This document shows positions 476 through 7,376 of a stretch of DNA of 11,508 nucleotides, piece after piece. Positions within the stretch are counted from its first letter, which is position 1, and each line of letters starts with the position of its first letter. The DNA comes from Candidatus Desantisbacteria bacterium CG1_02_38_46. GTDB taxonomy: Bacteria > Desantisbacteria > UBA1551 > UBA1559. A program made the position numbers and the translations under genes. The stretch lies in contig MNUO01000053.1 of the NCBI GenBank assembly GCA_001871015.1, positions 1 through 11,508 on the forward strand. Direction: 5' to 3'. Below the pieces are notes generated by a model. The model had not been told where the DNA came from. It did not search any database and saw only the letters and a program-made list of their open reading frames with translations.

Positions 476-841
476 TTAAATTTTTAAACTTTCTTCAATT
501 GTTTCTCTCAATTCCTCAAATTGAAATGGTTTTTTAAAATAAGCAAATACTTTATATTCTTCTGCAATCCTGCGGGTTTCTTCAGAAGGAAAAGCAGTAA
601 TAATAATTACAGGAAGTTGAGGATTTTCTTCTCTTAAAATCTTAAGTATATCAATGCCATCCATCTCAGGTATGAAGATATCTAAAAGAACTAAATCTGG
701 TTTCTCGAGAGAAATTTTTTTCAGTGCTTCATGACCATCAGAGGCATTTATTACAGCATATCCTTCAGATTCAAGTCTTGATTGAAGCATCTTTAATATT
801 TCAGGATTGTCATCTACAATTAATATCTTTGCCAGGTTCAC
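476..841 (-). CDS. Single-domain response regulator (CheY-like receiver)
   Basis: A complete receiver of 121 residues and nothing else. Acidic pocket D10-D11, phospho-acceptor D54 (DLVLLDIFIPEMDG), switch Thr T82 (VIIITAF) and conserved K104 (KKPF) are all present, so it should accept phosphate. It starts at GTG 841, inside the last 32 bases of the kinase gene, so translation is probably coupled to the kinase. Without an output domain it probably acts by protein-protein contact or as a phosphorelay intermediate. The adjacent kinase at 810-2672 is its natural partner (inferred from position). The following receiver at 266-466 is a related, broken copy: both share the SRLE-x-x-GY-x-[VI]-I-x-AS-[DN]-G pattern. 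Confidence 0.93.
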   Translation of the reverse strand: MNLAKILIVDDNPEILKMLQSRLESEGYAVINASDGHEALKKISLEKPDLVLLDIFIPEMDGIDILKILREENPQLPVIIITAFPSEETRRIAEEYKVFAYFKKPFQFEELRETIEESLKI

Positions 842-2672
842 ACCTCTGGATTAATTCTTTTACAGTAATTCCATCAGAAGGATATGTAGCAATTTTCAGT
901 TCAAAAGATATTTTAGTTTCTAATGCAATTTTTATCCTTTTTCCTATAGATAAAGCTCCATTTTTATCAGTGAATGCTAAAATTGCAATGGCGCCTTTAT
1001 ATTTAAACATAGAATCTGCTGGCTTGCGCAAAATTTCTTCAATAGTCTTCTCTAACTGGATTAAAATCTGGGAAGGGAAATTATTTTTTATCTGGACCAT
1101 AATCAGGGAGAGGTCAGTTTTTTCATCTTTTGCATACTCAATTCCATCAGAAAGACATTCAAGAAAATAGCCTTCCTCATTATAAATCGGAATTGTAAAT
1201 GTAAGCTTACTTCCACAGGATAAAGGACTATGCAGGCTTTCTGCCCAGATTTTACCCTTGTGTATATCTATAATCTCTTTTGCAATTGGAAGGCCTAATC
1301 CCAATCCACTTTCCTTTGGTAAATGACTATAAGAAAAACGCTGGAATCGATCAAAAATTCCTGAGATATACTCTTGAGGAATTCCTGCACCTGTATCTAA
1401 AACACTTACCTCTATCTCATCCTTTTTTGCATGAGCAAAAATTTTCACCCAACCTTCTTTTGTAAACTTGAGGCTATTATCAATAAGATTTGTGAGTACC
1501 TGAGTGATTTTCTCAGGGTCAATATATACTGAAGGTAAATCTAAAGGTATCTCATCTCTAATTTCAAGACTTTTTTCTCGGGCTCGCTCGTGAAAGGAAA
1601 AAACAACATCTTTTATTAATGGTGGAATATCTGTCAACCTTCTCCTCACCTTTACCTTCCCTGACTCAATCCTGGAAAGGTCAAGAAGATTCTCAATTAA
1701 ATAGGACAGGCGATCTATATTCTTTGATACAATTGAAAGAAAATCACTCTGCTCAGGATTAATCTCCCCTTTTATTCCCTCTAGGACCTGGGAAATTCCT
1801 TCCTTTGCTATGCTTAAAGGAGTTCGCAATTCATGGGAAACATTTGAGATAAAAACAGATTTTACTTTGCTCAATCTATCTAATTCTCTATTTGCATTTT
1901 CTAAATCTGCAAGCAGTTTCTTCAGTTCACGCATATCCCTTGCAACACCAATTATACCTGTAGGATTATTTCCTTCGTCAAGAAGTAAAGAACCAGAGAA
2001 AGACATTGGAATCTTTGTTCCATCTTTTGCAATATAAAACATATCCTGGTTACGGACTGTTCCATTTTCTAAGATGGGCTTAACATTTTTGAAAAAACTA
2101 AATTTTTCTTCAGAAATAATAGATTCTATTGACTTACCAAGTAATTCTTTTTTCTCATAGCCAAGCAAATTTAGAAGAGCATTGTTGACTGTTTTTATCA
2201 TGGTTTCTGAATCTATTACAAACAGTGTATCAGCCATATTATTGATGATGCGGTCAGTATATCCCTTTTGTCTAGCTAATTCCTTAGAGGCATATTCAAG
2301 TTGTGTTGTGACAGTCTGAAGTGCAAGAGATTCATTTTCTATCCTTTGCACAATTGAATTCAAGGACACTGCAAGAGTTTCAACTTCATCTCCTGATTCT
2401 CTCAACTCTATTGACTCAACTTTTTCACCACTTGCTAACTTTTGTGTTTGTAGAGATATAATCTCAATATTTTTCCCGATTTTCATTAAGAGCAATACCC
2501 CAAAAATAGAAAGAATTAAAACCAGAAGAAAAATTAGAAAAAGATTTTCTACAGTGGTGATATTGTAAGGAAAGATATATTTTGCTATGATATATCCGGA
2601 TACAAGCAAAGGAATGATGGTGAGTAAGGCATAAATAATCACAACTTTACGGGATATTTTTTCTTGCTTCAT
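810..2672 (-). CDS. Membrane PAS sensor histidine kinase with degenerate GGDEF-like tail
   Basis: 620 residues. Two transmembrane helices (about 10-31 and 43-64) enclose only about a dozen residues outside the membrane, so a conventional extracellular sensor domain is absent. A HAMP-like linker (65-120), a PAS domain (135-250, ending GVARDMR), and the HisKA dimerisation domain with phospho-acceptor H280 (NVSHELRTPLS) follow. The ATPase domain has N399 (NLIDNS), D427TGAG and GLGLG at 456-460, so all kinase motifs are intact. Residues 500-610 resemble a GGDEF fold (IATYPSDGITVKELI matches the usual end of that domain), but the signature is replaced by FKYKGAIAI, so cyclase activity is unlikely. 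It overlaps the PAS gene by ATGA and the receiver by 32 bases. It probably phosphorylates the receiver at 476-841. Confidence 0.93.
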   Translation of the reverse strand: MKQEKISRKVVIIYALLTIIPLLVSGYIIAKYIFPYNITTVENLFLIFLLVLILSIFGVLLLMKIGKNIEIISLQTQKLASGEKVESIELRESGDEVETLAVSLNSIVQRIENESLALQTVTTQLEYASKELARQKGYTDRIINNMADTLFVIDSETMIKTVNNALLNLLGYEKKELLGKSIESIISEEKFSFFKNVKPILENGTVRNQDMFYIAKDGTKIPMSFSGSLLLDEGNNPTGIIGVARDMRELKKLLADLENANRELDRLSKVKSVFISNVSHELRTPLSIAKEGISQVLEGIKGEINPEQSDFLSIVSKNIDRLSYLIENLLDLSRIESGKVKVRRRLTDIPPLIKDVVFSFHERAREKSLEIRDEIPLDLPSVYIDPEKITQVLTNLIDNSLKFTKEGWVKIFAHAKKDEIEVSVLDTGAGIPQEYISGIFDRFQRFSYSHLPKESGLGLGLPIAKEIIDIHKGKIWAESLHSPLSCGSKLTFTIPIYNEEGYFLECLSDGIEYAKDEKTDLSLIMVQIKNNFPSQILIQLEKTIEEILRKPADSMFKYKGAIAILAFTDKNGALSIGKRIKIALETKISFELKIATYPSDGITVKELIQRCEPGKDINCR

Positions 2673-4099
2673 ATTCGATTCTCCAGTTCTTGTTCTAATT
2701 TTTTGATTTTCTCTTTCAATTCCACCATTTTTAGCTCTCGTCCAACTGCTAATCTGGAAAATTTTCCCAGTTCCTCTACTTTTTCTTCCAATTCCTTAGT
2801 TCTCCCGTTCACCCTTTGCTCTAAGGTTTTCGCCCATTCCTTAAGCTGTGCCTCAGATTTTTTCAGCTCATCAATGAGATGTGTTGTTAGTCGCATGTCT
2901 CTAGCTATACCGACAATACCTACTAACTTTCCTTCTTTATCCTTCATCACTGAGCCAGAGAAACTTACTGGAATATTTTCACCTGTTTTTGTCCGACAGG
3001 TAATATCATAATTCCGGATAGAACCTTCCTCAATTAACTTCTTTAATCTCGTGCCTTTAAATATGGAGATTTCTTCTGTAAAGATAGTCGCAACTGGCTT
3101 GCCAATCAGTTCGTTCTCTTTGTATCCTAATAGTTCTACTGTCGCGGGATTAATCGTTCTTATCTTTGCATCAGGGTCTACTACGATTAAAGTATCAATC
3201 ATTGATTTAATGATATTGTCGGTGTAATCCCTAGCCGCCACCACTTCATCCTCTGCGCGCTTGAGTTTGGTGATGTCTCGAAGGGTCGCAATAATATTTC
3301 TGGAATTGCCATCAGCATCTTTGATTAGTGAGTAGGCGATGCTCATCGCGAGTTTCTTACCATCTTTTGTGCGCAGTACTGTTTCGACCGGTTCTACATT
3401 GCCCGTTTCTATTAACTCTCCCAGGGGTTTCATAAATTTTTCAATATCTTCAAGTTCATCAAAACTTTTCCCAATTCTTTCTTCGGGTTTCCAGCCGAAC
3501 GTTTTTGTGAATGCTGGGTTAACATTGACTATCACTCCATTGAGGTTTAACACAATGAGTGAGTCAGGCATTCCATCAATAATGGCTTTAGTTTCTGCTG
3601 CTGCTGCAAGTTCCTTCTCCTTTTCCTGCAAACGCTTGAGCTCGGTGATGTCTTCATGTATATTCACTATAATTTCTAAATTACCTTTATCATCAAAAAC
3701 AGGAAAATGGGTAGCACCAAGACAAATAGGATTATCCGGAGCTTCTGGACTAACATCGTGTGGATTATACCATATTGCAGGAATCTTTATAGACTCTCCT
3801 TTTTTAAGTTTTTCTAATAGCTCGGGGAATTTTTTCTTAAGTAATGGATCGTTAAAAAAAGACCATTCTGGAGGTGGAGTTGCCCCAAAAAGCTTTTGGA
3901 ACGCTTTGTTTGCTCTAATATGATGTCCTTCTGCATCACATATTTGGACACTATAGGGATTTAATTCAATTATATTATCCAGGACTTTTCTATCTTCCTC
4001 AAGTTCTTTGCTATACTTCTCCAATTCCTCAGCTCTAGCATTCTCTGCTGGCTTGAATTCACTTTTTTCTTTTATTTCCTCATTCTTCTTCTTAACCAT
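2669..4099 (-). CDS. Triple-PAS sensor protein without a kinase domain
   Basis: 476 residues, soluble, highly charged at the N-terminus. PAS1 spans about 35-155 (ends NIHEDITELKRL), PAS2 about 168-282 (ends ATLRDITKLKRAE), and PAS3 about 292-405 (VPVSFSGS-like core, ends VGIARDMR). A long coiled coil (405-476) ends the protein and carries an AVGREL-x-M-x-ELK segment often found at the end of PAS proteins. There is no HisKA, ATPase or output domain, so it must signal through a partner. The kinase gene overlaps it by ATGA and its PAS domain resembles PAS3, so it is the obvious partner. ATG 4099 is chosen because GAGGG lies 5 bases upstream. An in-frame ATG at 4114 has no good ribosome binding site. 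Confidence 0.88.
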   Translation of the reverse strand: MVKKKNEEIKEKSEFKPAENARAEELEKYSKELEEDRKVLDNIIELNPYSVQICDAEGHHIRANKAFQKLFGATPPPEWSFFNDPLLKKKFPELLEKLKKGESIKIPAIWYNPHDVSPEAPDNPICLGATHFPVFDDKGNLEIIVNIHEDITELKRLQEKEKELAAAAETKAIIDGMPDSLIVLNLNGVIVNVNPAFTKTFGWKPEERIGKSFDELEDIEKFMKPLGELIETGNVEPVETVLRTKDGKKLAMSIAYSLIKDADGNSRNIIATLRDITKLKRAEDEVVAARDYTDNIIKSMIDTLIVVDPDAKIRTINPATVELLGYKENELIGKPVATIFTEEISIFKGTRLKKLIEEGSIRNYDITCRTKTGENIPVSFSGSVMKDKEGKLVGIVGIARDMRLTTHLIDELKKSEAQLKEWAKTLEQRVNGRTKELEEKVEELGKFSRLAVGRELKMVELKEKIKKLEQELENRI

Positions 4100-4103
4100 T
4101 ATT

Positions 4104-4490
4104 TTATCCCTCATAGACTTGTTCTTTCGATGCTATTTGTTTGCCAAGTTTTGGAATGATGCCTAAGGGTGTGGCAATCTTATTGATTTCGACCCAGGTG
4201 CCCTTGGTTATTTTCATCTTGCCCGTAGCCATTAAGACCATACCGAAGGCTTTACCCGTCATAAGATTGAAGTAATCTTTTTTAGATATTTCAAATTGAA
4301 AATCTGGATTCTCCAATTTTTTCTCAGAGAAGCTCATTTCACCTTTATCGACCGAGAAGGTAAAGGCTTGATCTTCTCCATTTTTACAAAGCATGACAAT
4401 GGTAACTACTGTATTCTTTATCTTCTCCTTTAATTTCTCGTCCCGATTAGCAAGTTCCACCGCCTTTTTGGTTAATTCAATAATATTCAT
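4104..4490 (-). CDS. SCP2-type lipid/sterol-carrier domain protein
   Basis: A 128-residue single-domain protein. After an N-terminal helix come a beta-rich stretch, then NPDFQFEISKKDYFNLMTGK, AFGMVLMATGKMKITKG and a closing hydrophobic helix ending PLGIIPKLGK. This is the layout of the SCP2 fold, in which the 'G-K-[MI]-x-[IV]-x-G' strand lines a tunnel for fatty acyl or sterol-like ligands. Ligand and function are unknown. It is the first gene of the leftward signalling operon and its stop overlaps or abuts the PAS gene start, so a role in binding the lipid or hydrophobic signal sensed by that system is plausible but inferred. AAAGGAG about 13 bases upstream belongs to the repeat at 4499-4550. 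I see no convincing promoter for this operon. Confidence 0.82.
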   Translation of the reverse strand: MNIIELTKKAVELANRDEKLKEKIKNTVVTIVMLCKNGEDQAFTFSVDKGEMSFSEKKLENPDFQFEISKKDYFNLMTGKAFGMVLMATGKMKITKGTWVEINKIATPLGIIPKLGKQIASKEQVYEG

Positions 4491-4498
4491 AGCAAGAA

Positions 4499-4550
4499 TT
4501 TAGCTCCTTTTTAAGGTCGAACGCGGTTGCACTTGGGTGGTGAGCCGTAA
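4499..4550 (-). repeat. Orphan GIY-YIG gene 3' end, copy A
   Basis: On the minus strand this encodes YGSPPKCNRVRP followed by TAA, the same ending as the intact GIY-YIG protein (YGVPPRCNRVRP). It is a direct repeat of 5389-5440, with 47 of 52 bases identical. All five differences fall at third codon positions and are synonymous in this frame. Homology stops at the codon for Y, so there is no upstream gene. The repeat runs 15 bases past the stop and supplies the Shine-Dalgarno sequence of the SCP2 gene. Confidence 0.85.
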
Positions 4551-4560
4551 GGAAAAATAA

Positions 4561-4578
4561 AAAAATCCGAAAAATCCG
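4561..4578. repeat. 9-bp tandem repeat
   Basis: AAAAATCCG occurs twice in immediate succession, between the GIY-YIG tail copy A and the DUF5678 promoter. It may be a junction scar or an operator. Nothing else supports a function. Confidence 0.5.
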
Positions 4579-4587
4579 CAATTTTGT

Positions 4588-4616
4588 TTGACAAACCTTG
4601 TTATTTGTGGTATAAT
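4588..4616 (+). promoter_or_regulatory. Perfect-consensus sigma-70 promoter for DUF5678/retropepsin
   Basis: TTGACA at 4588-4593 and TATAAT at 4611-4616 with a 17-base spacer match the bacterial consensus exactly. Transcription would start near 4623, about 30 bases before ATG 4654 and 18 before the GGAGGTG ribosome binding site. Confidence 0.88.
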
Positions 4617-4653
4617 AAAACATGAGGAAATCATTGTTATGGAGGTGAACATT

Positions 4654-4887
4654 ATGACTAAACCAAGAAAGAAATCTAAGAGAATCAGCAATGCCGAATG
4701 GATACGACGCCACCTTGGAGAGTTAGTAGATAAACATGTAGGGAAATATGCCATCGTTGCCAACGGAGAGGTCTTTATTGGACAGGATCCCGTAGTCCTT
4801 GAAGAAGAAGCGATTAGGAAACATCCTGGAGCAAAACTTACTGGGCTTCCCATACCCAGACGGGAGGATTTCCAATGCGCCCTCTGA
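4654..4887 (+). CDS. DUF5678-like small protein
   Basis: 77 residues. After a basic N-terminus (MTKPRKKSKR), the core has a Trp (NAEWIRRHLGELVDKHVGKY), then AIVANGEVFIGQD and an alpha-helical end. This W-x(n)-L-x(2)-[KH]-x-GK-[WY]-x(2)-[IV]-x-[ND]-G pattern is the one I associate with DUF5678, a small domain of unknown function often found just before a retropepsin-like gene. That is the case here: the stop overlaps the protease start by 13 bases. ATG 4654 is chosen because GGAGGTG (4641-4647) lies 6 bases upstream. Longer in-frame starts would lie within the promoter. It may be a partner or substrate of the protease (inference). Confidence 0.8.
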   Translation: MTKPRKKSKRISNAEWIRRHLGELVDKHVGKYAIVANGEVFIGQDPVVLEEEAIRKHPGAKLTGLPIPRREDFQCAL

Positions 4888-5279
4888 CCTTTCCCTATAT
4901 TTCCTTGCACGGCAAGCATCCTCTTCCCATTATCCCTCTGGAACTCAAAGGACCACTGGGATGGAAAGAAACGATGGCCTATGTCGATTCGGGAGCGAGC
5001 TTCAGTATATTTTCTATAAATGAAGCACATCGGCTTGGTATCGACTATATAACCGGTAAGGAATTCATGATTACTGTTGGCGATGGAAGTTCCATTCCTG
5101 TATATCTTCATAGACTCTCTGCAAAAATTTCTCGTGTGTCGTTTAAAGCTACTATAGGATTCTCTCCCCGCTTGGGCGTAGGGTTTAACCTCCTGGGGCG
5201 CAAGGATGTATTTGAGCGGTTCGATGTAACCTTCAGTGATAGCCGCCGTATTGTAATCTTCTCGCCACTTGCTAAATAA
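4875..5279 (+). CDS. Retropepsin-like aspartyl protease domain protein
   Basis: 134 residues. The catalytic motif is AYVDSGASFSIF, with D38-S39-G40-A41 corresponding to the D-[ST]-G-[AS] of retropepsins. The second half has FNLLGRKDVFERF, matching the 'hydrophobic-hydrophobic-G-R-x-x-[FL]' segment that packs against the active site, and ends VTFSDSRRIVIF. One D-S-G per chain means activity would need a dimer, as in retroviral proteases. No signal peptide or membrane segment is seen, so a cytoplasmic location is expected. Start ATG 4875 has GGGAGG (4862-4867) 7 bases upstream and lies inside the DUF5678 gene, so the two are co-translated. Bacterial members are mostly uncharacterised and the substrate is unknown. 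Confidence 0.82.
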   Translation: MRPLTFPYISLHGKHPLPIIPLELKGPLGWKETMAYVDSGASFSIFSINEAHRLGIDYITGKEFMITVGDGSSIPVYLHRLSAKISRVSFKATIGFSPRLGVGFNLLGRKDVFERFDVTFSDSRRIVIFSPLAK

Positions 5280-5388
5280 CCCATCTTTTACTTCTTCGCT
5301 CTGTATCATTCCTCTTTTTCTCTTTAACTCCTTTTATTTTCTCTGTGGCTTCGTATTTTTTGGGCTGGCCTAATTTTCAGAAAGAGAG
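5280..5388. other. Spacer after the retropepsin gene
   Basis: No credible gene is seen. On the minus strand it carries a purine-rich stretch (AAAATAAAAGGAG, AGAGAAAAAGAGG) resembling low-complexity intergenic repeats. No clear terminator for the retropepsin gene is visible. Confidence 0.4.
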
Positions 5389-5466
5389 TTTAGCTCCTTT
5401 TTAAGGTCGAACGCGATTACATTTGGGCGGTGAACCGTAAGTGTCCATAAATAATTGGTACAATTT
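5389..5466 (-). pseudogene. Orphan GIY-YIG gene 3' end, copy B (longest remnant)
   Basis: On the minus strand it encodes KLYQLFMDTY then GSPPKCNRVRP and TAA, aligning without gaps to the last 21 residues of the intact GIY-YIG protein (17 of the last 20 identical). DNA identity with that gene includes an 18-base perfect run at the 5' end (AAATAATTGGTACAATTT on the + strand). Homology begins abruptly at 5466, immediately beyond the HEPN terminator-like hairpin. There is no start codon or upstream domain, so this is a remnant and not a gene. Confidence 0.85.
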
Positions 5467-5486
5467 AAAAAAGCAATCCTTTTGCT
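5467..5486 (-). terminator. Possible weak terminator after HEPN
   Basis: On the minus strand AGCAA and TTGCT form a 5-bp stem with a 5-base loop, followed by a run of T. It lies 7 bases after the HEPN stop. The stem has only two G-C pairs, so it would be weak. Confidence 0.35.
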
Positions 5487-5492
5487 ATTTTG

Positions 5493-5933
5493 TTAAAACT
5501 TTTTGTTTTTTAAAAGATTTTCTACTAATTTAATGGCTTCTTCTGCGGCTTGAATACTTTTTTGCGCACCTTGTTTTGAAAATTTACTTTTATAATCTGC
5601 CATTTCCCGAAGATCTAGAGCCTGGATAAAATTATCATAATATCCTTGTGGAAGTAATCCTTTATCAACATAAAAAGCCTTAATGGCAAAGACAAGTTGA
5701 ATATGGCTTTTCTCTCGGTACTTTTTCTTATAAAGAAGTGCTCTTGAAGCGTGAAATATAGCATAGTAGGCCTGGCTGGTTGCCCATTTAAATCTTTTTC
5801 TTGCTAATGTTTCTTTAGCGTCACGTAAATCTTCTTTGGCTGTCATCAACTCTTTAAAGCTAATCTTAGGACCATCAGAAAAAGGAATAATTCTTCTCTT
5901 CTCAATTGCTTCCTGGATATTATATTTCTCCAT
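5493..5933 (-). CDS. HEPN domain protein, putative toxin of a MNT-HEPN pair
   Basis: 146 residues, all alpha-helical by composition. The core WATSQAYYAIFHASRALLY and the C-terminal ALDLREMADYKSKF are the usual marks of the HEPN family, whose active members cut RNA as dimers. The usual R-x(4-6)-H catalytic spacing is not obvious: the nearest candidates are R73-EKS-H77 and R109-EMADY. Nuclease activity is therefore uncertain and it could be an inactive or scaffold member. The start overlaps the end of the nucleotidyltransferase gene by 14 bases, with GAGGGGAAAG upstream. In such pairs the nucleotidyltransferase neutralises the HEPN protein, in some cases by AMP addition to it. Confidence 0.85.
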   Translation of the reverse strand: MEKYNIQEAIEKRRIIPFSDGPKISFKELMTAKEDLRDAKETLARKRFKWATSQAYYAIFHASRALLYKKKYREKSHIQLVFAIKAFYVDKGLLPQGYYDNFIQALDLREMADYKSKFSKQGAQKSIQAAEEAIKLVENLLKNKKF

Positions 5934-6486
5934 AACTCGGCTTTCCCCTCCAGAGAGTTATTCCCTTTTTTACCTGTCTATGAAATACACTGTCTTCTTT
6001 TTTTGATGAAGCAAATTCTAAAGGATCCTGGATAATAACCTGATATCTCACATCAATGGTTTCATACTTGCCGATAATCCTTCTTAATTCTTTTTTATAT
6101 TCTGTACGAATAAATAAATCTATGTCACTTTTCTCATCATTAGAGCCATCTGCGCGACTCCCAAAAAGTATAACTTCATAACAATATTTCTGAATTTCTT
6201 TGACCAATTTTTGAAGACCAAGCAAGTTCTCAAATATTTTGAATTGTTTTAAGATAAAGTTATCGGTGTTAAGTTTATATAGGAATAGATTTCCTTTTCT
6301 TTCTCTGGATAAGATATCCAATTTTAAAAGTAACCTTAATATTTGGTTAGTTGCGCCCTTGCTGCACTTAGTCATTTTGGATACCTCATTGGCACAAAAT
6401 ACTATTCCCGGATGGTTTGAGAAAAAGGAAAGTATCTTCAAGGGTGCTTGGTGATATAGGTATTTTTTAATTTTTTGGTCGTTCAT
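5920..6486 (-). CDS. MNT nucleotidyltransferase with N-terminal winged helix, putative antitoxin
   Basis: 188 residues. The first 70 or so form a winged-helix DNA-binding domain (VFCANEVSKMTKCSKGATNQILRLL is the recognition region; LYKL the wing). The nucleotidyltransferase fold follows, with GSRADG at 109-114 and metal-binding D121-I-D123 (EKSDIDLFI), i.e. the G-S-x(10)-D-x-D motif. Fusion of a DNA-binding domain with MNT suggests autoregulation of the pair. ATG 6486 is chosen because AAAGGGG is 7-8 bases upstream; the ATG at 6507 lies in the -10 box of the promoter and cannot be transcribed. The HEPN gene overlaps its end by 14 bases. It lies directly after the GIY-YIG gene and between two copies of the GIY-YIG tail. 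Confidence 0.88.
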   Translation of the reverse strand: MNDQKIKKYLYHQAPLKILSFFSNHPGIVFCANEVSKMTKCSKGATNQILRLLLKLDILSRERKGNLFLYKLNTDNFILKQFKIFENLLGLQKLVKEIQKYCYEVILFGSRADGSNDEKSDIDLFIRTEYKKELRRIIGKYETIDVRYQVIIQDPLEFASSKKEDSVFHRQVKKGITLWRGKPSYGEI

Positions 6487-6505
6487 TATATTATCCCCTT
6501 TGTTC

Positions 6506-6534
6506 ATTATAGTGAAAAATTAAGTTAATGTCAA
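6506..6534 (-). promoter_or_regulatory. Perfect-consensus promoter of the MNT-HEPN operon
   Basis: On the minus strand TTGACA (6534-6529) and TATAAT (6511-6506) with a 17-base spacer. The -35 box contains the TGA stop of the GIY-YIG gene (6533-6531). Transcription would start near 6499, a few bases before the AAAGGGG ribosome binding site. Confidence 0.87.
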
Positions 6535-6596
6535 GGTCTTACCCGGTTGCATCTGGGTGGAACGCCGTATGTATCCACAAATAATTGGTACAATTT
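6531..6596 (-). repeat. GIY-YIG gene 3' end, copy C (inside the intact gene)
   Basis: The last 22 codons of the intact gene, the counterpart of the orphan tails at 4499-4550 and 5389-5466. It resembles copy B over its length. Similarity ends within or just after the stop codon, where the MNT-HEPN promoter begins. Confidence 0.8.
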
Positions 6597-7376
6597 CCTT
6601 TCTTCCTCCCGCCATCTCTGGGGAACAAGAATATATCGAAAAAGACAACCATATTTTTCTAAGAAAGTCTTTATATGACTATTTTTACTGTTTTGTCCGA
6701 GATGCTCTTTTAATCTCTTTTTAAGATTCCTGGCGCTGCCGAGATAAATCACCGAAGTTTTGCATTGGGGATATTCCAGTTCTTCTCCTTTCAGGCGAAA
6801 CTCATAGATGCCTGGACTTGCCGGCGCATTTCTAAGAACCTCCTCCAGGATAAAGGGATAAAGCATGGAAAAATTTGCTGATAAAGGGGGGTATTTATAC
6901 CCGGAGAGCCTCCTCTGTGAAGAAGGAATTCCCATATCCTTGCGATAAATACCAATTGAGTGCCTGGAAAGTTTAATCCCGTATTCACTCTCTAATTTAG
7001 CCTTTATAAGGAAATTTACAATGGGGACAGTCCCATGAATTGCACCACTACAGGCAGAGTAAACTCTGCCACTACAAAGATAATATGCATTGAAACCTGC
7101 ACAGGTGTATCTAATGGAGAAACCTTCGCTATTGCGTTCTATTTTAGCGATTACCCGAGAAGGCTCCATGATTAGCGAAGAGTCTATTTGGCAATCTGCC
7201 TCTCTCTGAGATAGAAATCTTTTGGTGATGACCCCCTTTCTTAATAATTTTTCAAAGAGCGGTGACGCTTCTACATTTTCAATGAATCCCTTGTATTTTA
7301 CCAGAGGCAACTGGAGAAAATCAGCAAAGATGATGCGGCCAATAAGTTTTGCATGCTCTATATCCCACGATTTCAA
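6531..7376 (-). CDS. GIY-YIG nuclease-domain protein with sigma-54-like N-terminal half
   Basis: 281 residues from TTG 7376. The C-terminal domain (about 185-281) is GIY-YIG: PGIYEF, VIYLGSARNLKKRLKEH (R221 as candidate catalytic Arg), an EEER cluster (257-260) for the metal-binding Glu, and the closing P-x-x-N (N277). The N-terminal half looks like parts of sigma-54: FADFLQLPLVKYKGFIENVE then SPLFEKL recalls its activator-interacting region, and SRHSIGIYRKDMGIPSSQRR (137-156) matches the RpoN-box helix. Residues of about 100-119 come from palindromic repeats (7021-7075). The role is unknown; a DNA-binding nuclease is the simplest reading. The start has a weak ribosome binding site, and a frameshifted upstream extension is possible. 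Confidence 0.78.
   Translation of the reverse strand: MKSWDIEHAKLIGRIIFADFLQLPLVKYKGFIENVEASPLFEKLLRKGVITKRFLSQREADCQIDSSLIMEPSRVIAKIERNSEGFSIRYTCAGFNAYYLCSGRVYSACSGAIHGTVPIVNFLIKAKLESEYGIKLSRHSIGIYRKDMGIPSSQRRLSGYKYPPLSANFSMLYPFILEEVLRNAPASPGIYEFRLKGEELEYPQCKTSVIYLGSARNLKKRLKEHLGQNSKNSHIKTFLEKYGCLFRYILVPQRWREEERKLYQLFVDTYGVPPRCNRVRP
7021..7036. repeat. Palindrome within the GIY-YIG gene
   Basis: GGGACaGTCCC (7024-7034) is flanked by ATGGG/CCCAT. It encodes GTVP in the linker just before the RpoN-box-like helix, and lies 16 bases from a second palindrome. This 'GGGGACAGTCCC' wording is typical of dispersed palindromic repeats in uncultured bacteria (recollection, not a search). Confidence 0.55.
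7053..7075 (-). repeat. Palindromic repeat inside the GIY-YIG gene (copy 1)
   Basis: GGCAGAGT, AA, ACTCTGCC form a perfect 8-bp stem with a 2-base loop (7053-7070), flanked by near-repeated ACTACA on both sides. Read on the minus strand it begins GTAGTGGCAG and resembles the repeat at 11485-11506 (18 of 22 bases). It stays in frame and encodes part of LCSGRVYSACSG. Confidence 0.75.

Follow-up and report, generated by a model that had tools for sequence, protein, structure and literature searches.

Phage Aeh1 offers a described case of a nuclease gene that interrupts a host gene: its nrdA is split by mobE, a free-standing homing gene that encodes an HNH nuclease. Modular GIY-YIG homing endonucleases of the I-TevI, I-BmoI and Seg type are a second point of reference, and a third is RpoN (sigma-54), for which the -24/-12 consensus is TGGCACG-N4-TTGCW. 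A survey of the GIY-YIG superfamily (PMC1564403) records fusions to other domains, with no mention of sigma or RpoN. Our literature search found no paper joining these elements, and a nuclease family with a sigma-54 DNA-reading part is apparently undescribed.

Here we analyzed a window, meaning the whole stretch of 11,508 nucleotides, in which an initial annotation had described an ORF that fuses sigma-54-like sequences to a GIY-YIG nuclease domain. On balance, we favor the view that the family to which this ORF belongs consists of site-specific, probably homing-type GIY-YIG nucleases with sigma-54-derived recognition that are aimed at PAS genes, and that triplet tracts in these genes are likely products of cutting. 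The features of the window that bear on this view are as follows.

6531-7376, minus strand: ORF with a TTG start, encoding an internally deleted sigma-54-DBD/GIY-YIG protein of 281 aa
7092-7376, minus strand: N-terminal part, residues 1-95, by homology to the family N-terminus and to the N-terminus of reduced RpoN-like proteins
7044-7085, minus strand: seam, a dispersed palindromic repeat with its core GGCAGAGTTTACTCTGCC at 7053-7070, at the site of about 130 missing residues that include the helix-turn-helix
6909-6998, minus strand: RpoN box, residues 127-156 (Pfam PF04552 profile positions 130-158 of 160)
6534-6839, minus strand: GIY-YIG nuclease domain with conserved catalytic-type residues (Pfam and family alignment)
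5371-5469, minus strand: remnant, the 3' end of a second gene copy, by sequence match to the nuclease gene
4481-4564, minus strand: remnant, the 3' end of a third gene copy, by sequence match to the nuclease gene
2669-4114, minus strand: PAS-domain protein with an unexpanded type-A PAS site (IFTEE) and without a -24/-12-like element
810-2672, minus strand: PAS histidine kinase with an unexpanded type-A PAS site (IISEE)

A nuclease family with a sigma-54 DNA-binding domain

The minus strand at 6531-7376 translates as the initial annotation had quoted, and its assignment of the C-terminal half to GIY-YIG is confirmed above the Pfam cut-off (PF20815, E=2e-6; PF01541, E=7e-5). Based on the window protein alone, the match to PF04552 is below the cut-off (E=0.011) and covers only residues 127-156, which correspond to the RpoN box. 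The signal is not due to chance, since the 411-aa protein of L061 (the same gene as L002), the closest relative of full length, contains a full Sigma54_DBD PF04552 domain (E=1.5e-10, residues 193-287) followed by GIY-YIG, and PF04552 matches 13 of 14 family members. PF01541 matches the same number. Members were aligned over the GIY domain (A3) and then over their full length (A6, 14 members). The GIY-YIG core is intact, with catalytic-type residues (Y, Y, R, E, N) invariant in 14/14, the window copy included.

The 14-member profile matches solved RpoN chains in the PDB (E=1.6e-18) as well as UvrC GIY-YIG domains (E=1e-3). Judged by these profiles, the DNA-binding domain of the family is homologous to that of RpoN. 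The structure predicted for L061 (mean pLDDT 66) superposes on sigma-54 over residues 5-290 with a Z of 12.9, and its C-terminus matches T4 Endonuclease II and UvrC (2wsh, 1yd6) with modest Z of 6.9 and 6.0. No match to the sigma-54 core-binding domain PF04963 was found in any of the 14 members at E<=0.1, and none of the 14 has a Pfam match to region I (PF00309).

The initial annotation had recognized two sigma-54-like parts in the window protein. The RpoN box stands, and the likeness of the N-terminal segment (FLQLPLVKYKGFIENVE..SPLFEKL) to region I is not upheld by profile comparison: with hhalign the segment scores a non-significant 1-5% against canonical RpoN region I. In the structure model the segment superposes on region I with low confidence (pLDDT ~58). 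Against the reduced RpoN-like proteins its hhalign probability is 94.7%. These proteins (L032-L042, in G028 and related genomes) are ~370-400 aa long and sometimes occur twice per genome; the sigma-54 DNA-binding domain is the sole domain recognized in them, with no match to the core-binding domain.

Relatives of the nuclease occur in MAGs labelled Aquificota, Anaerolineae, Stahlbacteria, Bacteroidetes, Hydrogenedentota and Desulfobacteraceae, in Aliarcobacter, and on plasmids of Sulfuricystis, Diaphorobacter and Arcobacter, where they are annotated merely as 'GIY-YIG nuclease family protein'. One member, L071, keeps the helix-turn-helix and has no RpoN box.

PAS sensor genes, the element and the triplet tract

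The position of the gene is consistent. In 20/20 PAS-linked loci from several phyla it is found within a PAS sensor gene (histidine kinases, EAL proteins) or directly ahead of one. Most loci have a PAS domain split by the nuclease gene at one fixed place; in four of the 20 (L061, L062 and two beta-proteobacterial plasmids) the gene immediately precedes the PAS ORF. The upstream PAS half ends '..NKAFQDIVKKYSxKLNYTEQELTEIIIEQVKNRIxxxDYTEIRISKK-stop' and is followed by the nuclease gene, the start of which often overlaps this stop (ATGA), a tight translational coupling. The downstream half reads '(M)..EELILQFDxARIFLA-EEEEEEE-ARIVVSLKDITERK' and often has its own start behind GGAGG. Nuclease copies are frameshifted in L064, L065, L066, L068/L118 and L072, which may mean that a homing-type gene is decaying or that some of the copies contain assembly errors. 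The search for a closely related empty allele, with the split PAS uninterrupted, found none, and the best homologue of this kind is 34% identical. Two diverged Arcobacteraceae members (L070 and L084) adjoin a methyl-accepting chemotaxis gene, with no GAA tract nearby. On a contig classed as viral (L193), the nuclease occurs with a split PAS sensor gene; phage origin was considered and rejected, as none of 50,697 phage records matched.

In-frame runs of GAA codons, which encode poly-E tracts, are present in every PAS-linked locus; they are six to thirteen units long, the exception being L152, where the tract is GAA GCA (GAA)4. The tracts are located at position A ('LIGQPVSxIFA[E]n') or position B ('ARIFLA[E]nARIVV') of the PAS genes. 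In GC-rich loci, where GAA and GAG are mixed elsewhere, tracts of GAA only are expected by chance at 2e-2 to 4e-5 per tract. A -24/-12-like element, [T/A][G/A]G-N10-GCA, abuts each tract in one register. Examples are the Sulfuricystis site (TGGCATCCGCCTTGCG followed directly by (GAA)7), the L064 site (TAGTATCATTTTTGCA followed directly by (GAA)7) and the L062 site (TGGCACTATTTTTGAA, the last GAA of which is the first repeat).

Elements were scored against the sigma-54 consensus given above. In the first set, 21/21 tract-abutting 16-mers fall in the top 0.5% of positions in their own locus. Across 26 distinct sites G3, T12, T13 and G14 are invariant. Codon wobble positions are fixed in the -12 element (T in 26/26, A in 25/26) whereas those in the spacer vary, which points to constraint on the DNA rather than on the protein. 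Tract length is 7 versus 8 in two plasmids that are 86% identical there, and L061 has tracts of 10 and 7 in different PAS domains of one gene. On a separate contig of G407, PAS sites have (GCA)5(GAA)2, (GAA)12 and (GCA)2(GAA)2, and the 18 kb examined there hold no nuclease gene. Within G407:C197 (L186, 11639-14190), (GCA)5(GAA)2 stands where the 84% identical query has GCA(GAA)9 in a paralogue, so that the triplet unit itself differs.

The association of element, tract and nuclease was evaluated in several ways. Once the rule had been stated, profile searches brought up four new carriers (L151, L152, L153 and L154), all of which conform to it. At the type-A PAS position, the median element score is 6.3 in non-carriers versus 12.55 in carriers (p=6e-6), and non-carriers have no tract at the homologous position. 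When viral contigs were scanned blind for G-N10-GCA(GAA)6, nine matches were obtained, and the sole PAS match (L193) has the nuclease directly upstream. Across 60 genomes, (GAA)7 was found in 4/5 carriers versus 4/55 others (p=7e-4), and none of the translatable tracts in the others is in a PAS domain. GAA runs as a general genome feature were rejected, given that 52/60 genomes are without (GAA)7 and the translatable non-carrier tracts lie outside PAS domains. Duplication of a cassette (element plus tract) between PAS positions was likewise rejected: the flanks are unlike each other beyond the element.

The sites also vary with the protein. S-R-R RpoN boxes pair with a TGGCA -24 sequence, S-V/I/L-R-TICNCRK boxes with (A/T)AG and the SVRTICNYRNS box with TGGAAA, and L071, without an RpoN box, has CAG and CCG. 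A Met in the helix-turn-helix pairs with TTTGAA and an Arg with TTGC. Within one and the same locus the two PAS positions, which are mutually non-homologous, have the same -24 type. This covariation is partly confounded, because sites and proteins are in cis and share descent. The initial annotation had proposed that a nuclease with borrowed sigma-54 parts could target -24/-12 sequences. For the family, the homology of the DNA-binding domain and the linked elements that track RpoN-box type strongly support this idea; it probably does not hold for the window copy, which is without the helix-turn-helix, and it does not extend to promoters, as the linked sites are in PAS coding sequence.

Readings of the nuclease, the tracts and the window copy

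In the mechanism that we favor, the sigma-54-derived module of intact members (helix-turn-helix and RpoN box) would read the -24/-12-like element within PAS coding sequence, at a place where a triplet tract of GAA, or sometimes GCA, directly adjoins it, and cutting by the GIY-YIG domain would take place at or near the element. The in-frame tracts would then most simply be products of cutting and repair at nuclease sites, and the gene would be mobile in the manner of homing genes, with PAS sensor genes as its hosts. Based on sequence, we consider binding of the element by intact members quite probable and cleavage by them probable; the homing lifestyle and the proposed origin of the tracts seem evenly poised. 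The spread over phyla and plasmids, the fixed insertion point and the frameshifted copies favor a homing-type mobile gene, with plasmid members, frameshifted copies and the 3'-end remnants in the window as signs of mobility. Several observations weigh against this reading: sites remain intact in carriers, both in cis and in trans, whereas insertion would destroy a classical homing target; the split PAS has no close empty allele among the homologues found; and the two Arcobacteraceae members have no tract nearby. It should also be noted that a sigma-54-like mode of binding would place the C-terminal nuclease at the -24 end of the element, distant from the tract.

There is room for a role in diversification, since operons have more than one intact site, some sites are in trans and tract lengths differ. 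Here the element-bound protein would cut or nick the adjacent tract so that repeat number changes faster, to the benefit of the host, and the poly-glutamate loop of the PAS sensor would be altered in length, tuning sensing, with GAA/GCA repeats in several phyla. The presence of several tracts per operon, the variation in tract length between close homologues (7 vs 8) and within one gene (10 and 7 in L061), the expansion of GCA units too and the tight coupling of the nuclease to the sensor halves are all consistent with it. However, poly-E may be tolerated rather than useful, and many nuclease copies are frameshifted, which is odd for a maintained beneficial system. We regard diversification as rather unlikely; if it were the true function, the system would be new in kind.

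The window copy requires separate consideration. Relative to the 411-aa protein of L061 it is missing ~130 residues, including the helix-turn-helix; L002 aligns to both of its ends, and the perfect palindrome GGCAGAGTTTACTCTGCC at the seam belongs to a repeat with 86 matches in the host genome (G000). The missing residues and the repeat at the seam indicate an internal-deletion derivative with its frame still open. By these sequence comparisons the window ORF is a decayed family member in which an internal deletion, marked by the palindromic repeat at its seam, removed the recognition domain, and it probably no longer targets DNA. That it is instead a functional shortened variant, targeted by the RpoN box alone, is unlikely: the frame is open across the repeat, the nuclease residues are intact and partial modules exist (L071 has the helix-turn-helix without the RpoN box), but the helix-turn-helix is absent, the seam is a dispersed repeat, the linked PAS genes have neither element nor tract, and two further 3' remnants point to decay. 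Besides 7044-7085 the repeat occurs 85 more times in G000, and it often forms short tandem arrays, as in C18 and C37. This palindromic repeat also gives rise to a fortuitous likeness between 'YLCSGRVYS' in the window protein and 'YLSSGDVRH' in L061.

Both 3'-end remnants are downstream of the ORF, and no further ones occur elsewhere in G000. Between the ORF and the remnants are a HEPN/nucleotidyltransferase pair and then small ORFs. The pair (MNT-like, 5493-6507, minus strand), between the ORF and a 3'-end remnant, is likely a toxin-antitoxin system. Small ORFs make up another stretch, from one remnant to the other, and the whole arrangement looks as though repeated 3' ends had served as entry points for modules; at 4588-5279 (plus strand) a 99-aa protein overlaps an ORF for a retropepsin-like aspartyl protease (PF13650, E=3e-5). 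The PAS genes in the window show no element and no tract. In G000 (assembly 87.8% complete) we found no match to the sigma-54 DNA-binding domain and no above-cut-off match to the core-binding domain. With no RpoN detected, the suggested competition with sigma-54 is unlikely in this organism.

For the family as a whole, a DNA-binding regulator that controls sensor expression from -24/-12-like sites in its own operon, with an auxiliary nuclease and protein-selected poly-E, would fit the conserved operon linkage with sensor genes and the conserved binding-type sites but is very unlikely, given that catalytic-type residues are invariant in 14/14, that GAA purity and fixed wobble are DNA-level features not given by a protein-level explanation, and that one paralogue has GCA instead of GAA.

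Comparison with known systems

In this family the DNA-recognition module of a transcription factor would serve to direct a nuclease, and the likely target sites can be read in genomes and track the recognition residues. The nuclease is linked to triplet-repeat tracts in signalling genes, and both a homing lifestyle and repeat-based sensor variation are directly testable.

The reduced RpoN-like proteins (L032-L042) share a homologous N-terminus and the sigma-54 DNA-binding domain with the family, but have no nuclease domain and no (GAA)7 in the genomes tested. With RpoN itself the family shares the helix-turn-helix and RpoN box, the same fold as judged by the predicted model, and -24/-12-like elements of about the same spacing. 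Unlike RpoN, it has no detectable core-binding domain, a nuclease is added and the elements are in coding sequence. In the window copy, the RpoN box alone remains of the sigma-54 DNA-binding domain.

As with mobE of Aeh1, the nuclease gene divides one host gene into two parts that are each translated on their own, although in this case that gene encodes a bacterial PAS sensor and in 4/20 loci the nuclease gene is before the PAS gene, not inside it. The I-TevI, I-BmoI and Seg type likewise combines a GIY-YIG catalytic domain with a separate DNA-recognition module, is encoded inside conserved host genes and has a patchy spread with decayed copies. In contrast to that type, the family described here has a C-terminal nuclease and a sigma-54-derived recognition module, no apparent intron or intein, intact target-like elements in its carriers and a triplet tract at the element.
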